This document shows, one piece after another, positions 19,085 to 31,127 of a stretch of DNA of 64,000 bases. A program made the translations under genes and the position numbers. Below the pieces are notes generated by a model. The model worked only from the letters and a program-made list of their open reading frames with translations, made no database searches and was not told the DNA's origin. This DNA comes from Methylocapsa sp. S129 (GTDB lineage Bacteria; Pseudomonadota; Alphaproteobacteria; Rhizobiales; Beijerinckiaceae). The first letter of the stretch is position 1. Each line of letters opens with the position of its first letter. The stretch lies in assembly GCF_009765995.1 (NCBI RefSeq), contig NZ_LMUI01000019.1, positions 1-64,000 of the forward strand. Direction: 5' to 3'.

Positions 19085-19486
19085 AAGGCGCTGAGGGGAT
19101 CGCATAGACGACACGAAACAGGGGCGGCGCGCAATCGCCGCCCTTTGCTTGCGCGCTTGCTCGATGAGGGCGTAGCGGGCGACTTGTCGCGGTGCGTGAT
19201 GCGGTCGCGAGCCGGGCCGCCGAGATCGTCGCCAGGCTTCGGCTCCGGTGCGACTTTCTGGAGCTTGGGGATCGTCTGAATCATTGCGGGGGCTGACGGG
19301 CTGTTGAGGATGTCGCGTCGCCATGACCAGTTGAAATAACTGCTACGCCGATGAAGACAAGGATGAGAACTCGGGGCGACGGGTTCTCTGGGCCGTGACG
19401 CTCAGCGCGAAAAATAGGCGGCCTCGTGCTTGCCAAAACGTTCATGATATGTTCTCTTTGCATAACCGCGGTTGCGAGGTTGCGCT
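19085..19486. other. Intergenic region between the ABC importer and the toxin locus
   Basis: About 400 bases. The first part contains a good hairpin terminator (listed separately). A 67-residue minus-strand frame (19081-19284) runs through that terminator and has no recognisable features, so I do not call it. The remainder should hold the promoter of the toxin gene; I see no clear consensus. Confidence 0.5.
19122..19150 (+). terminator. Rho-independent-like terminator after the ABC importer
   Basis: Stem GGGCGGCG / CGCCGCCC with a 6-base loop (19122-19143) followed by TTTGCTT. It lies 38 nt after the binding-protein stop codon, as expected for the end of the iol/ABC transcription unit. The T run is short. 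Confidence 0.65.
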
Positions 19487-20851
19487 GTGAACGATTTTCC
19501 GCCCATTCGGGTCTTTCGCCTCTCGCCCGGGGGAATTGAATGTGACGAGGAAGGGCTGCGGGTTGGCGACGTCGCGCTACTGGCGCGGGATAAGAAGGGC
19601 GGTTGGGCGGCGCGCGACGAGCGTGATCTCGGTTTCGACCTTTCGCGCGTTTACGGCTTTCCGATCGATGTCACGGCCAAGATGGCCGCCTTAGGCGCCG
19701 TCGCGAGCGCGCTCCGAGATCGGAATATCGCCAAGGCGCAGATCGCGGCCTTGCTGTTGCGACTTCCCGATCCGCTTCCGCTTGCCGACGCCCTGTTGGA
19801 CAAGTCTGGCGAGCGCCGCCTTTCTCGCGACCTTGTCGCGTGTGGCCTCTTGAAGGCCGATGATGGTTGGGACGACAAGCACCCGCGAACCGGTTCGCCG
19901 CCGAATCCTGGCTGGTTCGCGCCCAAGCCGAAAGAGTCGCAGGCGGATGAGCCGCCGAAAGCCGCCGCGAAGCCTAACGAAAGTGCGTCGTCTCACAGTG
20001 CCGCTCCCGGCGGCGAACTTGCGTTCGTGCCCTCAGCGCTCGCTACCGGCGCGGACTCGTTGCTCGCCGAAAATCTGTCTGCGGTCGCTCTGGATGGGCT
20101 CGCGATGCTGGCGGCTCGCGTTTCCGTTCCGACGATCCTTTTCGGGGCGATCTTCATCCCGAACGCCAATCGAATCGTGGATGAAGGCGCCGTTCCAGGT
20201 CGTCCCGACATGATCTACCGCTGGGCTCACGACGAGACCCGGGTGACTTTCAAGGCGCTCATCGACGGCCAGTGGCGAACCCTGATAGTGGGCGCCCTGG
20301 GACAGGGCCACGCCTTTTATAGTCCTGACGGCGAAATGGTCGCTCGAATGGTTCTCACGCCCGGGCGGCGCCGGACTTTGGTCATCACCGCCGACGCCCT
20401 TGATCGCGCGCTCGCGGACTTTCGTCGCGTCAACGGCGAGCCGGCAGCAAATCCGGCAGATGATGATCACGAGCCGAAACTCTGTCCGAGTCCGACGCCC
20501 GAGCCGAAGACGGCGCAATCGGCAAACTCGATCGCCTATCAGGAGTATGTCAGTAAGCTGCCCTACGGGTGGGCGATAAACGTCGGCGACGTCAACTTCG
20601 ACGGCTGCGATCCGCAGACGGGAGACTTGCTCGAAGCCAAGGCGGACATCGACTTCATGTTTGATGAGAATGACAAATTGTACGATTGGGTCAAGTCGAA
20701 AAAGAATCCTGCAATTCAGATGGAAAGACAAGCGAATAAAGCGGCCGCCGCGGGCCGCATTGTCGTTTGGCACGCTCAAACCGAGAAAGGCTATCGCGGA
20801 TTGAGCGAGATCGGCAAGACGAACCTGTTCGTCGTTTACGATCCGAACTGA
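19487..20851 (+). CDS. Polymorphic toxin with C-terminal Tox-REase-5-like nuclease domain
   Basis: About 454 residues. The C-terminal 110 residues have the pattern of restriction-endonuclease-fold toxin 5: YQEYVSKLPYGW, then NFDGCDPQTGDLLEAKADID, where FDG and the ExK-like LLEAK fit the active-site motif, then a lysine/arginine-rich helix. A linker around residue 140 carries HPRTGSPPNPGWFAPK, a Pro/Gly motif common in alphaproteobacterial effector proteins. The N-terminal 130 residues resemble nothing I know. There is no signal peptide, PAAR or Rhs repeat, so the delivery route is unclear. The GTG at 19487 follows GAGG; a TTG at 19472 is the alternative. Next to an Imm52-like gene. Confidence 0.75.
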   Translation: MNDFPPIRVFRLSPGGIECDEEGLRVGDVALLARDKKGGWAARDERDLGFDLSRVYGFPIDVTAKMAALGAVASALRDRNIAKAQIAALLLRLPDPLPLADALLDKSGERRLSRDLVACGLLKADDGWDDKHPRTGSPPNPGWFAPKPKESQADEPPKAAAKPNESASSHSAAPGGELAFVPSALATGADSLLAENLSAVALDGLAMLAARVSVPTILFGAIFIPNANRIVDEGAVPGRPDMIYRWAHDETRVTFKALIDGQWRTLIVGALGQGHAFYSPDGEMVARMVLTPGRRRTLVITADALDRALADFRRVNGEPAANPADDDHEPKLCPSPTPEPKTAQSANSIAYQEYVSKLPYGWAINVGDVNFDGCDPQTGDLLEAKADIDFMFDENDKLYDWVKSKKNPAIQMERQANKAAAAGRIVVWHAQTEKGYRGLSEIGKTNLFVVYDPN

Positions 20852-20864
20852 GACGAGAGCTTTG

Positions 20865-21623
20865 ATGGATAAGTTGCACCTCGATCTTTGGTGGGAAGCG
20901 CGCGAGCCTGCGCAAGCTGACGACGCGCGTAGGCTCTCTGACTTTGTCACCGGTCTGCCGGACTTCGATCCGATCTATCAGAGTTGGCTGGGTTCGCCGA
21001 CCACCAGGGAGGAGACGGTTCGCGTTCCTCTGAGCGAGGCCGAGGCGAAACAACTTTTAGTCGACACTATGAATCGCTATGACTTCGGCGGCGGTCTTTG
21101 GCCGGAGCAGGGGAGCGATGTTTGGGGAGGGCACGCGGGATCTCCGCCCTATGATTTTCGCGAGTCGAGCTACGCCGACACCAATTGCCATATTGGCTCT
21201 TACGGCCCGCACAAGGACAGTAAGGCAAACCACATCTTCATGCGGCTCTCGGCGTTGCGGCCGACCACCGGACGACTGTGGCGCGCGTCCGAACTCAGGC
21301 CGTTGATGAAATTCGCGTGCGAAATCTGGAAACCCGCGGAAATGTGCGCGATGTTTCCGTTCTATATCCGCGATCTTCCCTCGATCCCCAATCCGCTTTG
21401 GACGGCGCACCAGCGATCTCTCAAACCCTGGATCGGCTGGATCACCTACCTGCCCCCAGACCTCGCTTCGCGCGCGAAATATCCCGCCGATGTTGAAGTC
21501 GAAACTCTCGAAGACGGCTCTGTGCTGGTCACTTTATGCGAGGAGCTGTTCGAGAAGAACGATGCCGAGGGCTTAGCGCGGCTGCATGCGCTTGAAGCCG
21601 CGCTGCGCCCGATTCAAAGCTGA
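20865..21623 (+). CDS. Imm52-like immunity protein
   Basis: About 252 residues, soluble. It begins 13 nt after the toxin stop, the position of a cognate immunity gene. It is rich in tryptophan and has FGGGLWPEQGSDVWGG near residue 75, like the conserved Trp and Gly residues of the Imm52 family, which is known to neighbour Tox-REase-5 toxins. It should bind and block the nuclease domain in the cytoplasm. The Imm52 name rests on my recognition of pattern and context, not on a search. Confidence 0.65.
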   Translation: MDKLHLDLWWEAREPAQADDARRLSDFVTGLPDFDPIYQSWLGSPTTREETVRVPLSEAEAKQLLVDTMNRYDFGGGLWPEQGSDVWGGHAGSPPYDFRESSYADTNCHIGSYGPHKDSKANHIFMRLSALRPTTGRLWRASELRPLMKFACEIWKPAEMCAMFPFYIRDLPSIPNPLWTAHQRSLKPWIGWITYLPPDLASRAKYPADVEVETLEDGSVLVTLCEELFEKNDAEGLARLHALEAALRPIQS

Positions 21624-21728: not shown

Positions 21729-22463
21729 ATGACAGCGTTTGCACATTTCCCCTATGAGATCGTGGAAACCAGCGGTGAGAGCGCCCTCGCCACATGGGAG
21801 GAGTTGAAAAAGGCTGGCCGCGGCGCGCCCGTCGTACTCGGGGATGATCTCGAAAATCTCCTGTTCCCATTCGATCCAACGGATCGGGCGCGACTGACGC
21901 CAATCGAGGATATCCTTGCCGCCGCAGAAGCCATCAAGTTTCCGGCCGACCTTCATCAGCTTCGCCGGGACGAATATGCGGAGGCCATGGTGTACCTCGG
22001 GCAAATAGCTTCGTTGGCCGATTTCAAAAACGAGGAATGTGAGGCGCCTTTGGGGGATTGGCCCGCCGAGACCTCATACGGGTCAGGCTTGTCCGTCGCG
22101 TACGACACCTTGACCGGACAGCCTAGATCTCCAGTGCACATTGCGCTGATCCCTACCGATGACCCCACCGCCATTCCAGCCTATATGCAGTGGGGGAATT
22201 TTAATCAGTGCCCTGCGGCCGCCTATCACGTTGCGGCGCTGCGCGCCTGGCGCGACCATTACGGCGCCGAACTCATTGGCCTTGGGGCCGATACGATCAA
22301 CCTGCGCGTATCACGCAAGCCCACGACGCGCGAGGAGGCCCTCGAGCTCGCTCGCACACAATATTTCTATTGCAATGACATCATTGACCAGGGCATGGGC
22401 TCCTATCGGAAGCTGGCCGCCGGATTGATGGCGAGCGACTGGTGGTTCTTCTGGTGGGATTAG
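21729..22463 (+). CDS. DUF4253 domain protein, possible second immunity protein
   Basis: 244 residues. The C-terminal half matches DUF4253: PVHIALIPTDDPTAIPAYM, then RAWRDHYGAELIGLGADTIN, and the closing pattern REEALELARTQYFYCNDII. The N-terminal 100 residues are less conserved. AGGAGG precedes the ATG. DUF4253 proteins are found near toxins and have been proposed as immunity proteins; here the gene follows the toxin-immunity pair, which supports that idea. Function otherwise unknown. Confidence 0.75.
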   Translation: MTAFAHFPYEIVETSGESALATWEELKKAGRGAPVVLGDDLENLLFPFDPTDRARLTPIEDILAAAEAIKFPADLHQLRRDEYAEAMVYLGQIASLADFKNEECEAPLGDWPAETSYGSGLSVAYDTLTGQPRSPVHIALIPTDDPTAIPAYMQWGNFNQCPAAAYHVAALRAWRDHYGAELIGLGADTINLRVSRKPTTREEALELARTQYFYCNDIIDQGMGSYRKLAAGLMASDWWFFWWD

Positions 22464-22481: not shown

Positions 22482-22775
22482 TCACTTGGCTGGTCGCCGC
22501 TTTTCCCTAACGGTGAATCCGAGCTGTCCGAGCACTCTTACGGCGCCGGCTTTCCCGCCTTCGAAGTCGCCGGAAGCAAGTCGCTGGCCCGTGGCGAACT
22601 CATAGGCCGCGCCCAAGATGGCTTTGGGCGGGTAAAAGCGTTGTTCCCAGACCAGTTCATAAGTCGTGGTGGGCGCGAAGCCATGGGCGGAGAAGAACCG
22701 CTCCGGCCCCAGGCGGTCGTATTCTTTTATCGCGCGCAGCACGTCGGCGTCGGTCACGCGCTCCCAGGCTATCAT
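22482..22775 (-). CDS. Small protein with ScoMcrA-like N-terminal head domain
   Basis: About 97 residues. DADVLRAIKEYDRLGPERFF, FYPPKAILGAAYEFATG and DFEGGKAGAVRVLGQLGF match the compact head domain found at the N-terminus of ScoMcrA-type modification-dependent HNH endonucleases. Here it stands alone, with no SRA or HNH domain. The ATG at 22775 is preceded by GGAGGG. It converges with the DUF4253 gene and could be a leftover of a restriction system or a stand-alone binding protein. Confidence 0.7.
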   Translation of the reverse strand: MIAWERVTDADVLRAIKEYDRLGPERFFSAHGFAPTTTYELVWEQRFYPPKAILGAAYEFATGQRLASGDFEGGKAGAVRVLGQLGFTVREKRRPAK

Positions 22776-23006
22776 CTCGTCATCCCTCCGGGATCGTTTT
22801 GTCCTCATTCGAAATCTAGGGACAAGAGAACACGCGATCAATGCAATGTGGACGCGTCCCGTTTGAACATCGATTGCTCCGGGGGCAACGCGCTTACCTC
22901 CAGCGTCTGGCCGACATGGTTCGCATAGACATCATCGGGAGTAAGACAGACGGTCGGCTGCTCGTCAGGCGCAGTCTTGGCGCGGCCATCGAAGTCGGCG
23001 CCCGGT

Positions 23007-24161
23007 TTACTCCGCCGGCCGCACCAGCTTGATGTCGTGTTGCGCGGCCCAGGCTTGAAGGTCTTGGCGGCGCAGCGCGGCCGCCATCAGGTCGGGGAAA
23101 AGATCGGGCGTGCAGGCGAAGACCGGCGCGCCCAGAGCCGCGATGCGGGCGGAAAGATCGGCATTATAGGCGGGACGGCCGGCGTCGCTGAGGGCCAACA
23201 GCACGATCACGCTGACGCCCGCGCCGATCAGGCTCTTCAAGCGCGCGAGCGTCTCGTCGGCCTTGCCGCCCTCATAGAGGTCGCTGATCAGCACGAAATG
23301 GGCTTTGGCGGGACGTTCGATCTTGCTGGCGCAATAGGCGACCGCCTGGTTGATGTCGGTGCCGCCGCCGAGCTGGACGCCAAACAGCGTCTCGACTGGA
23401 TCGTCGAGCTCGTCGGTGAGATCAAGGACGACGGTGTCGAAGCAGACGAGCCGCGTCTTGACGACCGGCAGCGACGCCATGACCGCCGCGAAGATCGAGG
23501 CGTAGACGACCGAACTCGCCATCGAGCCCGACTGATCGACGCAGAGGATGATTTCATCGAGATCGGCGAGCCGTTTTTGGCGGCGCATGAAGCCGATGAG
23601 GCGTTCGGGCACGATCGTACGGCGATCGGCCTGATAGTGCCTGAGATTGGCGCGGATGGTGCGCGGCCAATCGATGTCGGCGAAACGCGGGCGGTGAGCG
23701 CGGCGGGAGCGGTCGATGGCGCCGCGAAGCGCCTCGGCGGTCCTGTGTTCAAGCCGCTCCATCAATTCCGCAACGACCTTGGCGATGACCTGGCGCGCCA
23801 TCGCCTTGGCCTTGTCCGGCATGACATTGCGTAGGGAAATGAGCGTCGCGACGAGGTTCACGTCGGCTTCAACGGCGGCGAGGAATTCGGGCTCGAGCAG
23901 CATGCGGTGCAGCCCGAGCCGTTCGAGCGCGTCCTTTTGGACGATCTGCACCACGGATGACGGGAAATATCGGCGTATGTCGCCGAGCCAGCGTGCGACA
24001 TTGGGCGCGGAGGCGCCCAGACCGCCGCGTTTCTTCCGATCGTTATCGCCCTCGCCATAGAGCGCAGTAAGCGCACCGGAGAGGCGCTGATCCTCGGGGC
24101 CCAGAGAATCGTCCCCGCCGCCGAGCGCGAGGCGCCAACGTCGCTCGCGATCGTCATTCAT
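23007..24161 (-). CDS. VWA-domain protein of the MoxR/SWIM operon (YehP-like)
   Basis: About 384 residues. The C-terminal half is a von Willebrand factor A domain with a MIDAS metal site: DQSGSM (about residue 215), the Thr in GGGTDINQAV, and the Asp in LISDLYEGG. The N-terminal half is helical, with MPDKAKAMARQVIAKVV. Length and layout resemble E. coli YehP. Last gene of the five-gene operon; the ATG at 24161 overlaps the DUF5682 gene by 8 nt. VWA partners usually bind clients of MoxR ATPases; the client here is unknown. Confidence 0.85.
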   Translation of the reverse strand: MNDDRERRWRLALGGGDDSLGPEDQRLSGALTALYGEGDNDRKKRGGLGASAPNVARWLGDIRRYFPSSVVQIVQKDALERLGLHRMLLEPEFLAAVEADVNLVATLISLRNVMPDKAKAMARQVIAKVVAELMERLEHRTAEALRGAIDRSRRAHRPRFADIDWPRTIRANLRHYQADRRTIVPERLIGFMRRQKRLADLDEIILCVDQSGSMASSVVYASIFAAVMASLPVVKTRLVCFDTVVLDLTDELDDPVETLFGVQLGGGTDINQAVAYCASKIERPAKAHFVLISDLYEGGKADETLARLKSLIGAGVSVIVLLALSDAGRPAYNADLSARIAALGAPVFACTPDLFPDLMAAALRRQDLQAWAAQHDIKLVRPAE

Positions 24162-26403
24162 GGGCCGGCCTCGCGCCAAGAATTTCAGTCAGGCGCTCGA
24201 AATGCCGCGGCCATATTGCCGCCGCGTCTGCGCAAAGCAGGCGTCCCGCCAGGCCCGCGCCGGCGCGGCCGAGCACAGCGTCGAGCAGGCGGCGGCGCTG
24301 CATGCGGTCGAGATTCGAAAAGGCGCGGCGGAACAACGGCAGATGTTCGACGAAAAACGCCTCATCGAGGCTTTGCATCCAAATGTCGACCGCCTCGCGC
24401 AAAGGCTTGTCATGGATGAGCCGCTCGCCTGCGCCTTCAAAAAAGCCTTCGAAATAGCCCGCGGCGTCGGCGGCCGCGCGGCTTGGCGAAAGCGCAAGGC
24501 CAAGAAGCGTCGCGGCGTCCTCCGCCGCCAGCGCTTCGGCTTCATAGAGCAGGCGCGCCGCCGCGCCCGCGATGACAGGCGTGACGCGCGCATCCTCCGT
24601 GAGTGCGCGAAGCGCATTGCGCCAGGCCGCCAGTTCGTCGCCGCCGATCTCGGCGAGCGTCGCGGCTTCGTTGGCGCTCGCCATCATGCGGCGCATCGCC
24701 GCCGCGGCGGGTTGATCGAGCCCGCGCGCCGCATAGGGCAGGGCGAGCGCGGCCTGCGTGAGGATGCGCGCGAATAAAGCGGCGAGCTGATCGGCGTCGG
24801 ATTGGCGCGCCTCGCCGTAGCGGAGCGTGTTGGCGAGCGGGAGCAGAGCGGGAAGCAACTCGCCGCAGTCGCTGGTTTGCGCCGCGCGCCTTTCGATCTT
24901 CTCAATGCCGCGTTCGACGGCTTGCGTAAGGCGCGCGGTCAAGGCGGCGAACGCCAGATCGGCGAGCGCTTTCAGATCGGCCGCCTGGTCGAAAGCCGCG
25001 GCCATGCGTCCGGTCGCCGCCTGGGCGATGGTCGAGCCGTGGATGAGATTCTCGACGAGGCGGACGGCGAATTCCGGCTCCCAGCGCAATATCCAGCGCT
25101 CGCGGAACGTGCCGCGGCTACGGCCGGCTTCGGCGAGCTTGCCCCATGGCGCGCCGAGCAGAACAAGGCGATGCAGAAGCGTCGAGCGGTCGGCGCCGCT
25201 CTCGCTGCGCAGATCCACCGCGAGTTCGCGGTCGAGCGCTTCGGGCTTGAGGCGCACGCGCTTTTGTTCGCGTTGCAAATCTTCGAGCAGCGGCGCCAGC
25301 GGCGCGTTGTCGGGGATGGCGCCGACTTCCGCGCCGACGAGCAAGCGTTGCGACACGATTGCCCAGACAAGGGTCTCGCCGAAGCAAAGGCAGGCGATCG
25401 CCGCTTCGCGCAATTCTTCGAAACCCGGCGCCGGGCGGCCGCGCAACGCGGCGAGACTTTGGGCGAGGCGCTCGGCTTCGATGAGCGAAGCGGTGGAGAC
25501 GAAATGACCTTCGGCGCGCAACGCGGCTGCGATGCGCGCCAGCCATCGCGAAGCGATTTCCTGTCGCGGCGCGTCCCAAAGATGCGCGCACCAGCCCGGC
25601 GCGGCGACGCCGGCGCCATAGCCGCTCGCCATCGCCAGGCGCGGCGAGGTCCAGGGCGCCCAGGTGGCGACGATCTTTTGCTTTGGCGCGCTCTTGAGGA
25701 GCGCGCGGTCCGCCGTAGCGGCGATCTTCGCCTGCAGCGCCGGCGCGTGCCACGCGCCGCAGACGACGGCGACCGACCCTTCGGCCTCCTTCGCCGCCTT
25801 GGCGATTTCCAACCGCATATAGGCCTCGCGGATCGCCTCCTGGCCGCGAACCGGCGACGAAGCCTCGCGCAGCGCAGTCATGGCTTCACTGATCGCGGCG
25901 AATATGGGGGCGGGCGCAGGGTTTTCCTCGATCACGTCGCGCCACCAGCTCTCGCCATCTTCGTAGCCGCCGGCCGCCGCGAGAACGCCAATCGGATCGC
26001 GTTCGAGCGGGCTCTGCTCCGTCTCGCCAGTGAAGGCGGCTTCCTTCGGTTCGGGTTCGGTTTCGTCCACTTGCGCAGGCAGCGCGAGCCGCCAGCTCGC
26101 GGGTATATCGATGAAGCGCACGCCGACGCGATGGCGCACCGCCCAGCATATGGCTTGATATTCGGGTGAAAAAGTCGCGAAGGGCCAGAAGATGGCGCGG
26201 CCCGGATCGTCCGCGGCATAGGTCAGTAGCGCGACCGGCGGAATCATCGCCGCGTCCGCGAGCATCGGCAATAGGTCCGACGCATCGGACGGCCCCTCGA
26301 CGAGCACGAGCGAAGGCCGCAAGGCTTCGAGCGCCTCCAGCAGGCGGCGCGCCGAGCCGGGACCATGATGACGAATGCCGAAAATGCTGACCTCGACGCC
26401 CAT
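24154..26403 (-). CDS. DUF5682 family protein (YehM-like)
   Basis: About 749 residues. It begins MGVEVSIFGIRHHGPGSARR, a strongly conserved opening of DUF5682 proteins, followed by LVEGPSDASDLLP; these His and Glu residues could form an active or metal site reminiscent of TraB/ChaN-like folds. The rest is mostly helical and Ala-rich. E. coli YehM is of similar length and sits in the same kind of operon. The start could also be GTG at 26415, which overlaps the MoxR stop by 4 nt. Function unknown. Confidence 0.8.
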   Translation of the reverse strand: MGVEVSIFGIRHHGPGSARRLLEALEALRPSLVLVEGPSDASDLLPMLADAAMIPPVALLTYAADDPGRAIFWPFATFSPEYQAICWAVRHRVGVRFIDIPASWRLALPAQVDETEPEPKEAAFTGETEQSPLERDPIGVLAAAGGYEDGESWWRDVIEENPAPAPIFAAISEAMTALREASSPVRGQEAIREAYMRLEIAKAAKEAEGSVAVVCGAWHAPALQAKIAATADRALLKSAPKQKIVATWAPWTSPRLAMASGYGAGVAAPGWCAHLWDAPRQEIASRWLARIAAALRAEGHFVSTASLIEAERLAQSLAALRGRPAPGFEELREAAIACLCFGETLVWAIVSQRLLVGAEVGAIPDNAPLAPLLEDLQREQKRVRLKPEALDRELAVDLRSESGADRSTLLHRLVLLGAPWGKLAEAGRSRGTFRERWILRWEPEFAVRLVENLIHGSTIAQAATGRMAAAFDQAADLKALADLAFAALTARLTQAVERGIEKIERRAAQTSDCGELLPALLPLANTLRYGEARQSDADQLAALFARILTQAALALPYAARGLDQPAAAAMRRMMASANEAATLAEIGGDELAAWRNALRALTEDARVTPVIAGAAARLLYEAEALAAEDAATLLGLALSPSRAAADAAGYFEGFFEGAGERLIHDKPLREAVDIWMQSLDEAFFVEHLPLFRRAFSNLDRMQRRRLLDAVLGRAGAGLAGRLLCADAAAIWPRHFERLTEILGARPAHE

Positions 26404-26411
26404 CGCGCGCG

Positions 26412-27491
26412 TCACATCATATCGCTGAGCGCATGGTAGTAATCGGCGTAGTCGGGCCGTTTCTTCAGCACGGTCTCGAGATATTCCTCCAGCACCGCCT
26501 TGTCCTGCACGGGGTCCTTGATGATCGCGCCGATCATATTGGATGCGATCCCTTCGGCGGAAAGCGCGCCGTTGTTGAAGAAGGCGGCGTGGCTGAGGCC
26601 GCCGATCATGACGCCGATCGCCTCGGCGGCGGAGAGCGATCCGGAAGGCGACTTCAGCGTCATTTTTCCGTCAACGGTCGCGCCGCCGCGCATTTCGCGG
26701 AATATAGCGACGACGCGCGCGATCTCTTCGGCGACGTTTTTGGGCGCGGGCAGTTCGAGGCCCTGCGACATTTCGCCAACGCGCTTGGCGACGATCGCGA
26801 CCTCCTGCTCGAGGTTGTCCGGCAAAGGGAGGACCACGACGTTGAAGCGGCGCTTTAAGGCCGAGGATAGTTCGTTCACGCCCTTGTCGCGATTGTTGGC
26901 CGTCGCGATGATATTGAAACCGCGCCTGGCGTAAACGGAATCGTTGAGCTCCGGGATCGGCATCATCTTTTCCGACAGGACGGTGATGAGCGTGTCCTGC
27001 ACGTCCGATCCCATGCGCGTCAGTTCTTCGAGACGGCAAAGCTTGCCATTCTCCATGGCGCGGAGCAGAGGCGTTGGAACCAACGCCTGGCGCGACGGTC
27101 CATGAGCGAGCAATTGCGCATAGTTCCAGCCGTAACGAATCTGATTTTCATCGGTGCCGGCCGTGCCTTGAATGATCATCGTCGAATCGCCGCTGATAGC
27201 GGCGGCAAGATGTTCCGAGACCCAGGATTTCGCTGTGCCCGGCATGCCAAGCAGCAGGAGCGCGCGATCGGTGGCGAGCGTGGCGATCGCCGTCTCGATC
27301 AGGCGCTTGTCGCCGACATATTTGGCGCTGATCGGCGCGCCGCCCCCAGCCGCGCCGCCCATGAGATAGGTCATGGCCGCGCGGGGCGATAAAACCCACC
27401 CTTTCGGCTTCGGCCCTGCGTCGCCGACCTTCAAAGCTTCGAGTTCGGCGGCGTAGGTTATTTCGGCGGGAAGACGCAACATTTCCGTCAA
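26412..27491 (-). CDS. MoxR-family AAA+ ATPase (YehL-like)
   Basis: 359 residues. Walker A GMPGTAKS lies near residue 83, a Walker B-like CRLEELTRM follows, sensor 1 is in NIIATANNRDKG, and the arginine-containing ALKRRFN follows, the order expected of MoxR/AAA_5 ATPases. It probably remodels a partner protein together with the VWA protein encoded two genes downstream. The start overlaps the DUF5691 stop by 4 nt. Length fits YehL of E. coli. Confidence 0.9.
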   Translation of the reverse strand: MTEMLRLPAEITYAAELEALKVGDAGPKPKGWVLSPRAAMTYLMGGAAGGGAPISAKYVGDKRLIETAIATLATDRALLLLGMPGTAKSWVSEHLAAAISGDSTMIIQGTAGTDENQIRYGWNYAQLLAHGPSRQALVPTPLLRAMENGKLCRLEELTRMGSDVQDTLITVLSEKMMPIPELNDSVYARRGFNIIATANNRDKGVNELSSALKRRFNVVVLPLPDNLEQEVAIVAKRVGEMSQGLELPAPKNVAEEIARVVAIFREMRGGATVDGKMTLKSPSGSLSAAEAIGVMIGGLSHAAFFNNGALSAEGIASNMIGAIIKDPVQDKAVLEEYLETVLKKRPDYADYYHALSDMM

Positions 27492-28915
27492 GGCGTAGCC
27501 TCCGTTGTCAAAGCGGCGTTGAAGCGCAAGGGGTCGAGTCTCGGATCGGCGGCGGGGAGGCCAGCGGCGGTCAGGCGCGCCAGCAAGGCCGCGGCGGCCG
27601 GCGCGTCGGCCAAAAACGCGATGCGGCTCAGCATCGTCTCAAGGAGGGCGTCGGCAGGCCGGCGTTGCGTCTCGTCTTCGCCGCGAGCGGCTTCGACCGC
27701 GTTCGTCAGCGCGGCATATCCGGGCGAGGCGAGCAAAGCTGGCAGCGCCGCCTCGCCCAGAACGCGGCCCATTAGCGTCAACGTCGTCTCGAACATCTCG
27801 GCGTCGCGCATCAGGATCCGCGGCTGGAGCGCTCGTCGTTGTTCCGCATCGAGCCGAGGCCCTAATGAACGGGCGTGGGCGAGCGGGAAGGCGCCGTCGT
27901 CGAGCATTTGATCGAGCAGCATGCGGCAGGCGCGGTCCGAGCCGGTCGCCGCGACCATCTGCACGAAGGCTTCGACGCCGTCGGGAGCGCCGACCGGCGC
28001 CGTCTCGACGATCTCTTCCTCGGTTATGCGAAGCGCGCGGGCAAGACCCGCCAAGCTCACGAGCTTGAACAAGTCCCGGCGGCGCGCATTTTGCGCCGGG
28101 GTCTTCAGGGCGTCGATCGCCAAACTTGCGCGGCCGCCCGGCGCCTCGCTCTTGCGGACTTCCAGCATATCGGCCAGTTCCGTCGCAAGCGCCTCCGCAT
28201 CGACCCGCCGCCCGAGCCTCGCGAGATAAAGCCGCGCCAAAACTTGCACGCGTTCGGACCGGTCGTCCGCTTGAGCTTCGAGACATTCGACGTCCTGATC
28301 GGAGAGCCCCGTATCGAGAATCTCGATCAGCATGGCGCGCCGCTCCGCAACCTCTGAAGACGCCTTGGCGGCGATGATCGCGCGCGCTGCGCCGGGATCG
28401 CGCGTGCGCAATGCGACGAGCGCGGCGCACCGCATCGCCCAGGACCATTGCTCGTAGGTATCGAGCGCGAATGTCGGCGGCGGGAACGGCTTGTCTTCGC
28501 CGCGAACCCAGTCGAACCAAGGCGCATAGCCGTCCGGCGCCCAATCGGCGCGCGACGCGGGCAGCCAATCCGCAGGGTGCAGGACGTAACCGCGCGCCGC
28601 GACGAAGTCGATCCAATGGCGCTCGATCGACGCCCCGCCTTTCTGCTTCGCCATCAAACGGCGCAGATGGGGCCGCAATGGCTCGGGAAGGGTCGGCGGG
28701 GCAAGCTCGGGCAGAAGGCGACGCGGTTCCAGTGCCGCCGCCGGGGCCGGACGAAACAGCACGGCGCCCGCATGACCAGCGAGCGCGGCGAGGGCGCATT
28801 CAGCGCCGACGCCCTCGACGGCGGCGCGCCATTCCGGCGGACAATGTTGGAATGCCGAACGTCCGGCCATCCAGGCGCCGCGGATATGGGCGAGGGAGGA
28901 TTCGAGATCATCCAT
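27488..28915 (-). CDS. DUF5691 family protein
   Basis: 475 residues, mostly alpha-helical with repeat-like stretches around residues 180-330 (DQDVECLEAQADDRSERVQV). The central WLPASRADWAPDGYAPWFDW region is characteristic of DUF5691 proteins, which occur beside SWIM and MoxR genes. No catalytic motif is visible. It overlaps both neighbours (8 nt with the SWIM gene, 4 nt with MoxR), so the five products are probably made together. Helical repeats suggest a scaffold; this is inference. Confidence 0.75.
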   Translation of the reverse strand: MDDLESSLAHIRGAWMAGRSAFQHCPPEWRAAVEGVGAECALAALAGHAGAVLFRPAPAAALEPRRLLPELAPPTLPEPLRPHLRRLMAKQKGGASIERHWIDFVAARGYVLHPADWLPASRADWAPDGYAPWFDWVRGEDKPFPPPTFALDTYEQWSWAMRCAALVALRTRDPGAARAIIAAKASSEVAERRAMLIEILDTGLSDQDVECLEAQADDRSERVQVLARLYLARLGRRVDAEALATELADMLEVRKSEAPGGRASLAIDALKTPAQNARRRDLFKLVSLAGLARALRITEEEIVETAPVGAPDGVEAFVQMVAATGSDRACRMLLDQMLDDGAFPLAHARSLGPRLDAEQRRALQPRILMRDAEMFETTLTLMGRVLGEAALPALLASPGYAALTNAVEAARGEDETQRRPADALLETMLSRIAFLADAPAAAALLARLTAAGLPAADPRLDPLRFNAALTTEATP

Positions 28916-30272
28916 CGAAGGCGAGCCTTCCCCAGTTCGTCCGGGCGGCGATCAGGGCGAGGCGCGCGCCATCCCAAACGCCCGCCGCGCTGTCGATCAA
29001 GGCGCCGAGGGCGAGCGACGGCGGCGGCTCGCGCAGCGGCGCGCATAGGCCGCGGCTGGACCGCCACCATGCGCGCCCGCTGGCGTCGGCGCAGATTCGA
29101 CCTTTCGGCAGCAGCAGCGGCGTCTCGGACCGCCATGGCGTCGCCAGGAGGTCTTCGGCGTAATGGGCGAAGGGATCTGTTGGCGGATCCGGCCAGGCGT
29201 CCAGTGCATCGACGGCGCCCTCGCGCGAGGCGATGACGGCGCGAAGCGGCGCGCGGGCCGGATAAAAGGCGATCTCCGCATGGAAGCGCTCGCCGGCGAC
29301 GAACGCGCCGCCGCGGCGACCCGCCGACGCTGGGAAGAAATCGAGCAGCACTGCAAAACGCCGCGCCGACGGCCCGAGGCTCATCAGCCAGGTCGCCTGG
29401 CTCACCAGTCCGTCGCGGCGCGTCACGACGCGCTCGCCCAGCACTTCCCAGAGCGAGATGGCGCGCGGCGCCTTTGGATTGGCGAGCACTTCCTCGCGCG
29501 TTTCCGCATTGACGATTTCGCGGCGCAGTTCGGGGTCGTCCGGGGCCGCGCGCCACGCGCGCGCGAGGAGGACGAGCTTGCCGAGTTCGGCGATGGCCGC
29601 GTCGACCCGCTCTTCCGCGGACAGGGCGAGCAGACGCGAGGGCATTTCATCGATGCGGCTCGCCAGTGCGCCGGCCTTCGCGTCGACCAGGCGCGCCGCG
29701 ATGCGTCGGCAGCGTTCGCCGAGGGCGCCGAGAAAGCCTGCAAGGCCGGTGCGCAATTGATCGGCGATCCAGATGTCGAGATCCTCGGTCGCGGCGTAAA
29801 CGGATCGGTGGGTTTCATCGGCGCGCTTCAAAGCGGCTGCTTTTCTGCGCGCCTCGGCGTCAGGGTCAGGCGTGCTTTCGGCGAGCGCCTGATGCGCCGC
29901 CTCGAGGCTTTTGTCTTCGCCGGCTGCGACGGGCGGCGCGACGCCCTTGCGGCGACGCCGGGTCCAATCATTGACCCAATCGGGGACATCGCCGGCCTGA
30001 AACGCAGCGCCGTCTTCGACGTACATCCACATCAAAGCCAGCGCGTGTTTGCACGGAAATTTGCGCGACGGACAGGTGCATTTCGAGCCCCGATCCTCAA
30101 GGTCAGCGGCGACGCGATACGGATTGGCGCCGGAACCTTGGCATTCGCCCCAGATCAATCGTTCCGAACGCGCGCGCAGCGGCCATTTCGCCGGCTTGAG
30201 CAATGCCGATGCGGCGGCCAAAGCGCTTTGGTCCGGCGCCATCGCTTCGATCGCGGCGCGAGTCATATCCAT
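28908..30272 (-). CDS. SWIM zinc-finger protein (YehQ-like)
   Basis: About 454 residues. A SWIM zinc finger, CTCPSRKFPCKH (C-x-C-x6-C-x-H), lies near residue 62 within a typical SWIM context (YRVAADLEDRGSKC before, ALALMWMYVE after). SWIM fingers bind DNA or proteins. The rest is helical with no other motif I recognise. I chose the ATG at 30272 because family members start shortly before APDQSALAAASALL; an ATG at 30350 is possible. First gene of the operon, divergent from the 2'-5' RNA ligase-like gene. Confidence 0.82.
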   Translation of the reverse strand: MDMTRAAIEAMAPDQSALAAASALLKPAKWPLRARSERLIWGECQGSGANPYRVAADLEDRGSKCTCPSRKFPCKHALALMWMYVEDGAAFQAGDVPDWVNDWTRRRRKGVAPPVAAGEDKSLEAAHQALAESTPDPDAEARRKAAALKRADETHRSVYAATEDLDIWIADQLRTGLAGFLGALGERCRRIAARLVDAKAGALASRIDEMPSRLLALSAEERVDAAIAELGKLVLLARAWRAAPDDPELRREIVNAETREEVLANPKAPRAISLWEVLGERVVTRRDGLVSQATWLMSLGPSARRFAVLLDFFPASAGRRGGAFVAGERFHAEIAFYPARAPLRAVIASREGAVDALDAWPDPPTDPFAHYAEDLLATPWRSETPLLLPKGRICADASGRAWWRSSRGLCAPLREPPPSLALGALIDSAAGVWDGARLALIAARTNWGRLAFDG

Positions 30273-30485
30273 CGGCAGCGGTCCCCAGCTCTTGCGATGC
30301 GATGGCGTAGGCGTGCCGAGCGGCAAGGAACGCGACTGGCCTCCCATCATCCGTTCTTGAAATTCTCAACGCCTCATTATCTTGCCCCCAAAGCCAGTTC
30401 ACGATATGTTCCTTAAAGAGTCAAGGCGATTTGTCGAAGATCGACAGCGCGGCAGCGTCGACGCCACCGCGAAGGAGCTGGGAGC

Positions 30486-31127
30486 ATGCCTTTCACCGGC
30501 GCACCGCAACAGCCGCAACAATTGTCGTTGGACCTCGACCTGCAACCGACGAGGCTGCAGTCCGCACGGAGATTCATGCAACGGAAATCCCCGCAAAGGA
30601 CCGATCTGTTCTTCGCCATTTATTTGGACGTCGCCGCCACAGCCCGCAGCGCGGAATTGGCGCGCGCTTTATGCGGCCCGTCACAATTATCCGGCCGGCC
30701 TCGACCGGCGGAGATCTTGCACGTCACATTGGTCCCGGTCGGCGTTGCGTCGCTCTTGCCGGCGGAGGCATTTTCGGCCCTTGAGCGGGCCGCAGCGTCT
30801 ATCGATCAGGCTGCTTTCAATGTTGTTTTTGACCGCGTCGCGAGTTTCAAGAACGGCGACAGTTTTGCGCTGGTCCTGCTTTGCGGCGACGGCCTCGCCG
30901 CGCTGACGGCTTTACGAAACTCGCTCCACGCGGCGATGGCCGGCGTCGAGTTTCTTGGGCGGTCGCGTTTCAAGCCGCATGTGACTTTGGCTTATTGTCG
31001 CAAGCCCGTCGCCGAAACTGCACTTGGCGCGCCGATCGCGTCGACCGTGCGCGAATTCGCCCTCGTCCGCAGCGTGTATGGCGAAGGCGTGCACATGCCG
31101 CTCGCGCGTTGGCGATTGCGCGATTGA
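30486..31127 (+). CDS. 2'-5' RNA ligase / cyclic phosphodiesterase-like protein (LigT family)
   Basis: 213 residues. The two H-x-T motifs of the 2H phosphoesterase superfamily are present: LHVTLVPV near residue 79 and KPHVTLAYC near residue 162. Members hydrolyse 2',3'-cyclic phosphates in RNA or ligate tRNA halves. The N-terminal 35 residues (Gln-rich, PQQPQQ) are an extension of unclear role. It is divergent from the SWIM operon across about 200 bp; a functional link is only suggested. Confidence 0.85.
   Translation: MPFTGAPQQPQQLSLDLDLQPTRLQSARRFMQRKSPQRTDLFFAIYLDVAATARSAELARALCGPSQLSGRPRPAEILHVTLVPVGVASLLPAEAFSALERAAASIDQAAFNVVFDRVASFKNGDSFALVLLCGDGLAALTALRNSLHAAMAGVEFLGRSRFKPHVTLAYCRKPVAETALGAPIASTVREFALVRSVYGEGVHMPLARWRLRD

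Follow-up and report, generated by a model that had tools for sequence, protein, structure and literature searches.

We describe a five-gene operon in the first 64,000 nucleotides of contig NZ_LMUI01000019.1 from Methylocapsa sp. S129 (the window). It encodes, in this order, a SWIM zinc-finger protein, a DUF5691 protein, a MoxR-type AAA+ ATPase, a DUF5682 protein and a von Willebrand factor A (VWA) protein. The new result of the analysis is that the DUF5682 protein, judged from its predicted structure and its alignments, looks like the TraB-type TIKI hydrolases. The operon itself is real and its gene order is fixed. Its members are:

28908..30350, minus strand: SWIM zinc-finger gene, the first of the operon; start at ATG 30350 or at a second ATG at 30272; Pfam SWIM, 7.4e-8
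27488..28915, minus strand: DUF5691 gene; PF18944, 7.9e-15
26412..27491, minus strand: MoxR-type AAA+ ATPase gene; start at TTG 27491 or ATG 27482; AAA_5, 1.5e-36
24154..26415, minus strand: DUF5682 gene; start at GTG 26415 or ATG 26403; PF18934, 7.4e-221
23007..24179, minus strand: VWA_CoxE-type gene with a metal ion-dependent adhesion site (MIDAS) motif; start at ATG 24161; PF05762, 4.1e-53

Organization and conservation of the operon

The original prediction, made from the letters of the window, had described five genes in one direction with short overlaps or gaps, and this layout was recovered. If starts at 28915, 27491, 26415 and 24161 are used, neighbouring genes share 8, 4, 4 and 8 bases at the four junctions; choosing ATG 27482 and ATG 26403 instead turns two of these overlaps into gaps of 5 and 8 bases. 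The motifs on which the prediction had relied were all read in the translations, namely the SWIM finger, the Walker A sequence GMPGTAKS of MoxR, the GIRHHGPG start of DUF5682 (within FGIRHHGPG) and the MIDAS sequence DQSGS of the VWA protein, and the Pfam families agree with them.

A scan of the window's DUF5682 protein against one genome per species (84,980 species) returned 132 relatives, of which the best 80 were kept; 45 of these 80 come from Mesorhizobium. Adding 12 loci from a phylum sample, the window and the Escherichia coli yeh locus gave 94 loci for profiling. The DUF5691-type arrangement was found in 86 of them and the E. coli type in eight. All five genes occur in the same order and on one strand in 79 of the 86 DUF5691-type loci. 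Contig ends truncate five of the seven loci without the full set (L041, L055, L095, L101 and L106). As for the remaining two, neither a DUF5691 nor a MoxR gene was detected in L098, and in L103 MoxR is partial and the SWIM and DUF5691 genes went undetected. The operons of L032, L098 and L103 look damaged: in L032 both SWIM and DUF5682 are spread over more than one frame, and DUF5682 is also split in L103; an assembly error is possible in these cases. The fixed order recurs in Alpha- and Gammaproteobacteria, in an Accumulibacter metagenome-assembled genome (MAG) and in Planctomycetes, which indicates that the arrangement is not due to chance.

DUF5682 had served to find these loci, and 299 phylum genomes, the window's among them, were therefore used as a check with less bias. 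DUF5682 scored above the cut-off in 12 of these. DUF5691 did so in six, exactly those with a window-type DUF5682, and in all six the two genes lie close together; two further DUF5691 matches stayed under the cut-off. Among 30 diverse loci, pairwise distances between the five proteins correlate with r values of 0.81-0.94; in 999 permutations, not one of these ten values was attained. This shows joint inheritance and not contact, and shared descent alone gives high values too. The intact loci, the co-occurrence in six genomes and the joint divergence bear out the expectation that the genes are conserved neighbours, inherited as one unit. DUF5691 is the fastest-diverging subunit (mean identity 0.29 across the 30 loci). 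No conserved sixth gene was found, the widest flanking cluster being present in 6 of 34 loci.

The operon is patchy in its distribution: 3 of 100 relatives carry it, counting the window's genome, and none of ten other species of the genus does. The Accumulibacter copy is, among the 30 loci, closest to that of Mesorhizobium. Both observations suggest that the operon has moved horizontally.

DUF5682 as a TIKI/TraB-like protein

The model of DUF5682 (predicted local distance difference test, pLDDT, 81.7) begins with an alpha/beta domain and ends in a tail of helical repeats:

25711..26403, minus strand: TIKI/TraB-like domain, DUF5682 residues 1-231, with H12/H13, E36, R192-E193-M196 and H219
24265..25086, minus strand: alpha-helical repeats over DUF5682 residues 440-713, HEAT-like to judge from matches to VPS35, the PP2A A subunit, importins and designed repeats

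In structural comparison, residues 1-231 of the model matched chain 7w5z_E with a Z score of 9.3 over 180 residues at 4.9 A. The PDB name of this chain is 'TraB family protein', and a figure legend describes the TraB-family subunit of the complex IV of 7w5z (PMC10060162). The likeness extends to the motifs. TraB has the sequence G-T-A-H with a Glu 24 residues past the His; DUF5682 has G-I-R-H-H, and E36 stands 24 residues past H12. A later G-x-x-H occurs in both, and R192 and M196 of DUF5682 precede this second motif with the spacing of the conserved Arg and Met of TraB. A profile of the N-terminal domain drawn from 90 DUF5682 sequences matched an alignment of 32 TraB/GumN sequences (of 33 listed, one being empty) with E 3.6e-4 over 30 columns, at the second GxxH. 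The controls gave 0.45 (MoxR), 0.41 (SWIM) and 0.30 (DUF5691), and the possible relative Ere gave 0.27. The VWA control was excluded because of a false 100% match that arose from locus L028, where DUF5682 and VWA are merged in one open frame.

The putative active-site residues are strongly conserved. H12 and H13 are present in 87/87 ungapped sequences (80/80 window-type and 7/7 E. coli-type for H12), E36 in 89/90 (81/82 window-type and 8/8 E. coli-type), and G216 and H219 in 90/90 (82/82 and 8/8). In the TIKI enzymes, a set of two His and two Glu is described, with the catalytic His and Glu residues located close to strands of the core sheet (PMC6254334).

Several results weigh against the placement. 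A Z score of 9.3 at 4.9 A is only modestly above the 7-8 typical of models without a clear match, and with Foldseek alone the DUF5682 model had no significant match. Smaller profile tests were not significant: against GumN alone they gave 0.044-0.11, and the value against four TraB sequences was 0.066, though here the first motif was in register. The first Gly of GxxH is a Pro in three of seven E. coli-type sequences. Proteins of the Ere/RRSP branch carry an additional Glu two positions ahead of the first His; DUF5682 lacks it and has Ile or Val there (I10 in the window); TraB has a Thr at this position and likewise lacks that Glu.

The smaller GumN/Ere control alignments, from which one sequence with stops was left out and in which one was empty, all gave values of 0.044-0.51, none of them significant. 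Sequence searches of the PDB with DUF5682 returned nothing up to E 1 for the single protein and a best E of 0.42, not meaningful, for the profile. In the same database neither the GumN profile nor E. coli YbaP found a TraB structure, and the TraB profile alone reached 7w5z_E (E 0.048). Ere, ChaN and RRSP are absent from the structural match list of the DUF5682 model; this is no evidence against a TIKI fold, because helical repeats filled that list.

On the basis of the fold match, the shared motifs, the profile match and the missing extra Glu, as in TraB, we propose that DUF5682 (YehM in E. coli) belongs to the TIKI hydrolase superfamily as a TraB-like branch, and a hydrolase activity is predicted. 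DUF5682 might instead be an inactive TIKI-fold scaffold or a regulator of the MoxR-VWA pair. The matched chain 7w5z_E is indeed a structural subunit without the first GxxH, and PMT is an example of a TIKI-fold protein without catalytic residues (PMC6254334). We regard this as quite improbable, as H12/H13, E36 and H219 are retained in two divergent subtypes, unlike in a decayed site. With DUF5682 placed among the TIKI proteins, candidate catalytic residues can be named, and the cluster, which is present in E. coli K-12, can be tested directly.

The SWIM, DUF5691 and MoxR proteins

The SWIM protein, modelled with a pLDDT of 87.3, contains two features of interest:

30045..30080, minus strand: SWIM finger CTCPSRKFPCKH, C65-x-C67-x6-C74-x-H76, in invariant alignment columns
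28932..29495, minus strand: OB-like region, SWIM protein residues 260-447, possibly two OB folds, from weak structural matches

Residues 2-115 match the ZSWIM8 chain 9rwz_N with a Z score of 9.2. The region of about residues 260-361 matches OB-fold proteins that bind single-stranded DNA (SSB, PriB, RPA) with Z scores of up to 5.9, and residues 254-447 match tandem-OB HIN domains at Z 4.6-4.8. These OB matches lie under the trusted level of the tool and may reflect only a common arrangement. The models hint weakly that the SWIM protein adds OB-like domains to its zinc finger. Profiles of the SWIM and DUF5691 proteins found nothing meaningful among PDB sequences (best 0.15 and 0.53, respectively).

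The original prediction had assigned the part of target recogniser or effector to DUF5682 or SWIM. The TIKI/TraB-like fold and motifs favour DUF5682 as the effector; the OB and ZSWIM8 matches leave the SWIM protein a plausible recogniser, weakly indicated.

Walker A and S1 motifs are conserved among the aligned MoxR sequences. The Walker B motif reads R-L/F-E-E in both subtypes, each Glu being present in 98% of the sequences; the usual Walker B has Asp-Glu. The named subfamilies of MoxR include YehL (PMC3893208).

The E. coli-type arrangement

E. coli yehL, yehM, yehP and yehQ had been named in the original prediction as relatives of four of the genes. Pfam confirmed this with MoxR-type AAA_5, DUF5682, VWA_CoxE and SWIM matches, respectively, and a profile derived from the window's MoxR scores the YehL open reading frame (ORF) at 465 bits. 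That prediction had missed that DUF4132 replaces DUF5691 in the E. coli type. The operon profile did not detect DUF5691 in the E. coli-type loci, and a DUF4132 protein was found in seven of these eight, in some of them with WGR or HEAT_2 matches. The DUF4132 genes of L027 lie downstream; in the eighth locus, L025, the large ORF tested matched nothing. A SWIM motif is present in the ORF after VWA in six of the eight loci, with Pfam SWIM over the cut-off in three; L025 ends early, and in L027 no SWIM motif was seen after VWA.

DUF5691 and the DUF4132 proteins have no detectable sequence similarity (best 0.28), and their equivalence is therefore positional only. Comparison of the SWIM proteins of the two subtypes gave no clear similarity either (best 0.011). 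One genome (G196) carries both subtypes. The window operon is a sister layout to E. coli yehLMPQ, with a common core and with DUF4132 in the place of DUF5691. This exchange links two orphan families to one machine.

The yeh genes had been said to lack an assigned function, and none was found in the literature searched, which largely excludes subscription papers. DUF5682, DUF5691, PF18934 and PF18944 are mentioned nowhere in that literature. Two papers in it carry two or more of the names yehL, yehM, yehP and yehQ, the DGF-298 report and a Shigella sonnei resource, and no functional study of yehL, yehM, yehP or yehQ was found by title among the matches listed.

Upstream region and LexA-type boxes

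A second feature missed by the original prediction is a probable LexA box upstream of the operon:

30397..30411, plus strand: probable LexA box GTTCACGATATGTTC, located upstream of both ATG 30350 (by 46 bp) and the divergent gene at 30486 (by 74 bp)

The pattern GTTCN7GTTC is a loose description of the alphaproteobacterial LexA box. Sites of this form precede recA at close range and lexA by 101 bp. A tighter form, GTTCN5ATGTTC, which was picked after inspection of the site lists of window and genome, is enriched genome-wide (23 sites versus 2 in the backwards control). It precedes the gene of DNA polymerase IV (dinB) by 39 bp and a gene whose SRAP match is borderline (27.6 bits at a cut-off of 27.1) by 38 bp; a pair of such sites stands some 210-220 bp before a DnaE-type gene. 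As similar sites precede the recA, lexA and DNA polymerase IV genes and the tighter form is enriched, GTTCACGATATGTTC is a probable LexA box.

Against a control of the operon by LexA stand the following results. The loose pattern occurs at chance level in the window (2 found, 1.99 expected) and is not enriched genome-wide (182 sites, 204 in the backwards control). With a matrix of six boxes, GTTCACGATATGTTC scores 16.3 of a possible 27.4. Of 79 upstream regions, only that of the window has the box; the 78 regions from relatives all lack it. It could also serve the divergent 2'-5' RNA ligase-like gene instead. In the 79 upstream regions of SWIM genes, the E. coli-type LexA pattern occurred at chance level (5 regions, 6.75 expected), and in a matrix scan six regions beat their own best of 20 shuffles, again about what chance gives. 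The divergent gene (30486-31127, plus strand) encodes a 2'-5' RNA ligase/LigT-like protein and has the promoter region and the LexA-type box in common with the operon.

In E. coli, a LexA-like box ends 9 bases before yehF, which lies two genes before yehI. The gene molR is listed as LexA-regulated (PMC11039860). The deletion list of strain DGF-298 names molR just before yehI, and the deletion extends through yehQ (PMC10652928); the yeh cluster is accordingly dispensable in that strain. A Deinococcus operon with a DUF4132 gene was up-regulated after depletion of DdrO (PMC8533742). Taken together, these sites and reports make a link of the operon to DNA damage suggestive.

Genomic surroundings

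A setting in a defence island and membership of the published MoxR-VWA conflict systems were not supported. Of 123 flanking ORFs from 34 loci, 120 were scanned (three long ones were left out), and some of them may be spurious. No defence island was seen: PADLOC matches were scattered, with at most 2 of the 120 ORFs per family (no background set was used), and the Pfam families of these ORFs are ordinary. Within the operon, PADLOC gave no match for SWIM, DUF5682 and VWA and marginal matches only for DUF5691 and MoxR (E 0.006-0.009); the match of the window's MoxR to bpMoxR reached 26.9 bits at a cut-off of 27. A Pfam scan of the five proteins did not find the third components of the conflict systems, VMAP, iSTAND, FtsH or beta-propeller, and PMC7159879 uses none of the terms SWIM, DUF5682, DUF5691, Tiki and TraB.

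These data bear on the explanation that the operon is an anti-phage or abortive-infection device, with DUF5682 as toxic effector and SWIM and DUF5691 as sensors of the invader. Its patchy occurrence with horizontal movement (12/299 genomes; 3/100 relatives and 0/10 congeners) would fit such a device, as would the fast divergence of DUF5691, a toxin/immunity-like pair 2.5 kb from the operon's end and the existence of MoxR-VWA conflict systems (PMC7159879). In view of the PADLOC results and the ordinary neighbours, we consider it clearly unlikely.

A maturation system is another explanation. MoxR and the CoxE-like VWA protein would be dedicated chaperones for the assembly of DUF5682 or its loading with metal; DUF5682 would be a metabolic hydrolase, and SWIM and DUF5691 would serve assembly or regulation without a role on nucleic acids. 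The VWA gene does belong to the CoxE family, and known MoxR proteins mature enzymes, CoxD for CO dehydrogenase (PMC3893208) and NorQ for NO reductase (PMC13036017). However, no gene of a metabolic enzyme or pathway is conserved beside the operon, given the limited spread of even the widest flanking cluster; nor is a NO reductase or CO dehydrogenase gene conserved near it among the flanking clusters of the 34 loci. The SWIM/OB protein and the alternative WGR-DUF4132 subunit would also be left unexplained, and we hold maturation to be unlikely.

In the window, the operon is followed by a 119-residue protein gene (22482-22841, minus strand) without a Pfam match, whose product resembles the start of the PADLOC type IV restriction enzyme model mREase_IV (1.5e-14), and which is adjoined by a DUF4253 gene (21729-22463). 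Further away lie a Tox-REase-5 toxin-like gene (19472-20851, plus strand) and an Imm52 immunity-like gene (20862-21623, plus strand), which match the PADLOC candidates PDC-M17A/B. A LexA-type box, GTTCATGATATGTTC, is located 17 bp before the Tox-REase-5 gene (region 19440-21623). The same box stands 29 bp before an AHH nuclease-domain gene elsewhere in the genome (C5:121859, locus L165), and the toxin-like genes may share a control through it.

Proposed mode of action

Our preferred reading, held tentatively and at slightly less than an even chance, is an ATP-driven MoxR-VWA machine that activates or feeds a TIKI-type hydrolase, DUF5682, and takes its guidance from the SWIM protein and a large subunit that can be exchanged. 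The MoxR ring and its VWA partner would form the motor, with a VWA loop in the pore of the ring by analogy to NorQD, where the loop enters the MoxR pore and a linker is stretched (PMC13036017). DUF5682 would be the enzyme or the client of this motor, its putative hydrolase domain (H12/H13, E36, H219) being carried on a helical-repeat body. The motor might remodel DUF5682 and so switch it on or load its metal, or it might present clients to it; the most likely substrate is protein. The SWIM protein, with zinc finger and OB-like domains, could bring the complex to nucleic acid or nucleoprotein, while DUF5691, or DUF4132 in the E. coli type, could act as an exchangeable scaffold or recogniser that selects the target together with SWIM. 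The setting would likely be that of an accessory, horizontally moved device for stress response or genome maintenance, under SOS control at least in the window's genome.

A far more specific version appears a long shot to us: an SOS-inducible, ATP-driven TIKI-type protease, guided by SWIM and OB domains to damaged or protein-blocked DNA, where it would cut DNA-bound proteins. It would be a MoxR-powered counterpart, in bacteria, of the DNA-protein crosslink proteases, with DUF5691 or WGR-DUF4132 as interchangeable recognition subunits. If the general reading is true, the coupling of a MoxR-VWA motor to a TIKI-type enzyme would be a new arrangement.

Comparison with known systems

A close counterpart of the operon is the E. 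coli K-12 row yehI-yehK-yehL-yehM-yehP-yehQ, which likewise unites MoxR, DUF5682, VWA_CoxE and SWIM proteins. Its order is MoxR-DUF5682-VWA-SWIM, unlike the SWIM-first order of the window, and YehI (DUF4132) is found where the window has DUF5691. YehQ contains two SWIM motifs, and by profile it is not clearly similar to the window's SWIM protein.

With the members of the TIKI/TraB superfamily (TraB, PrgY, GumN, Tiki, Ere and RRSP), DUF5682 has in common the predicted fold, the first GxxH with its Glu at +24, the R-x3-M and the second GxxH. It differs from them in its long helical-repeat tail, in its operon with MoxR and VWA and in the lack of the additional Ere/RRSP Glu.

The pairs NorQ/NorD and CoxD/CoxE also combine a MoxR ATPase with a VWA partner, and the window's VWA protein is of the CoxE family. 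In contrast to these pairs, the operon contributes three further conserved subunits and has no conserved NO reductase or CO dehydrogenase gene nearby. The MoxR-vWA ternary conflict systems described in PMC7159879 resemble it in having a MoxR and VWA core with further subunits.

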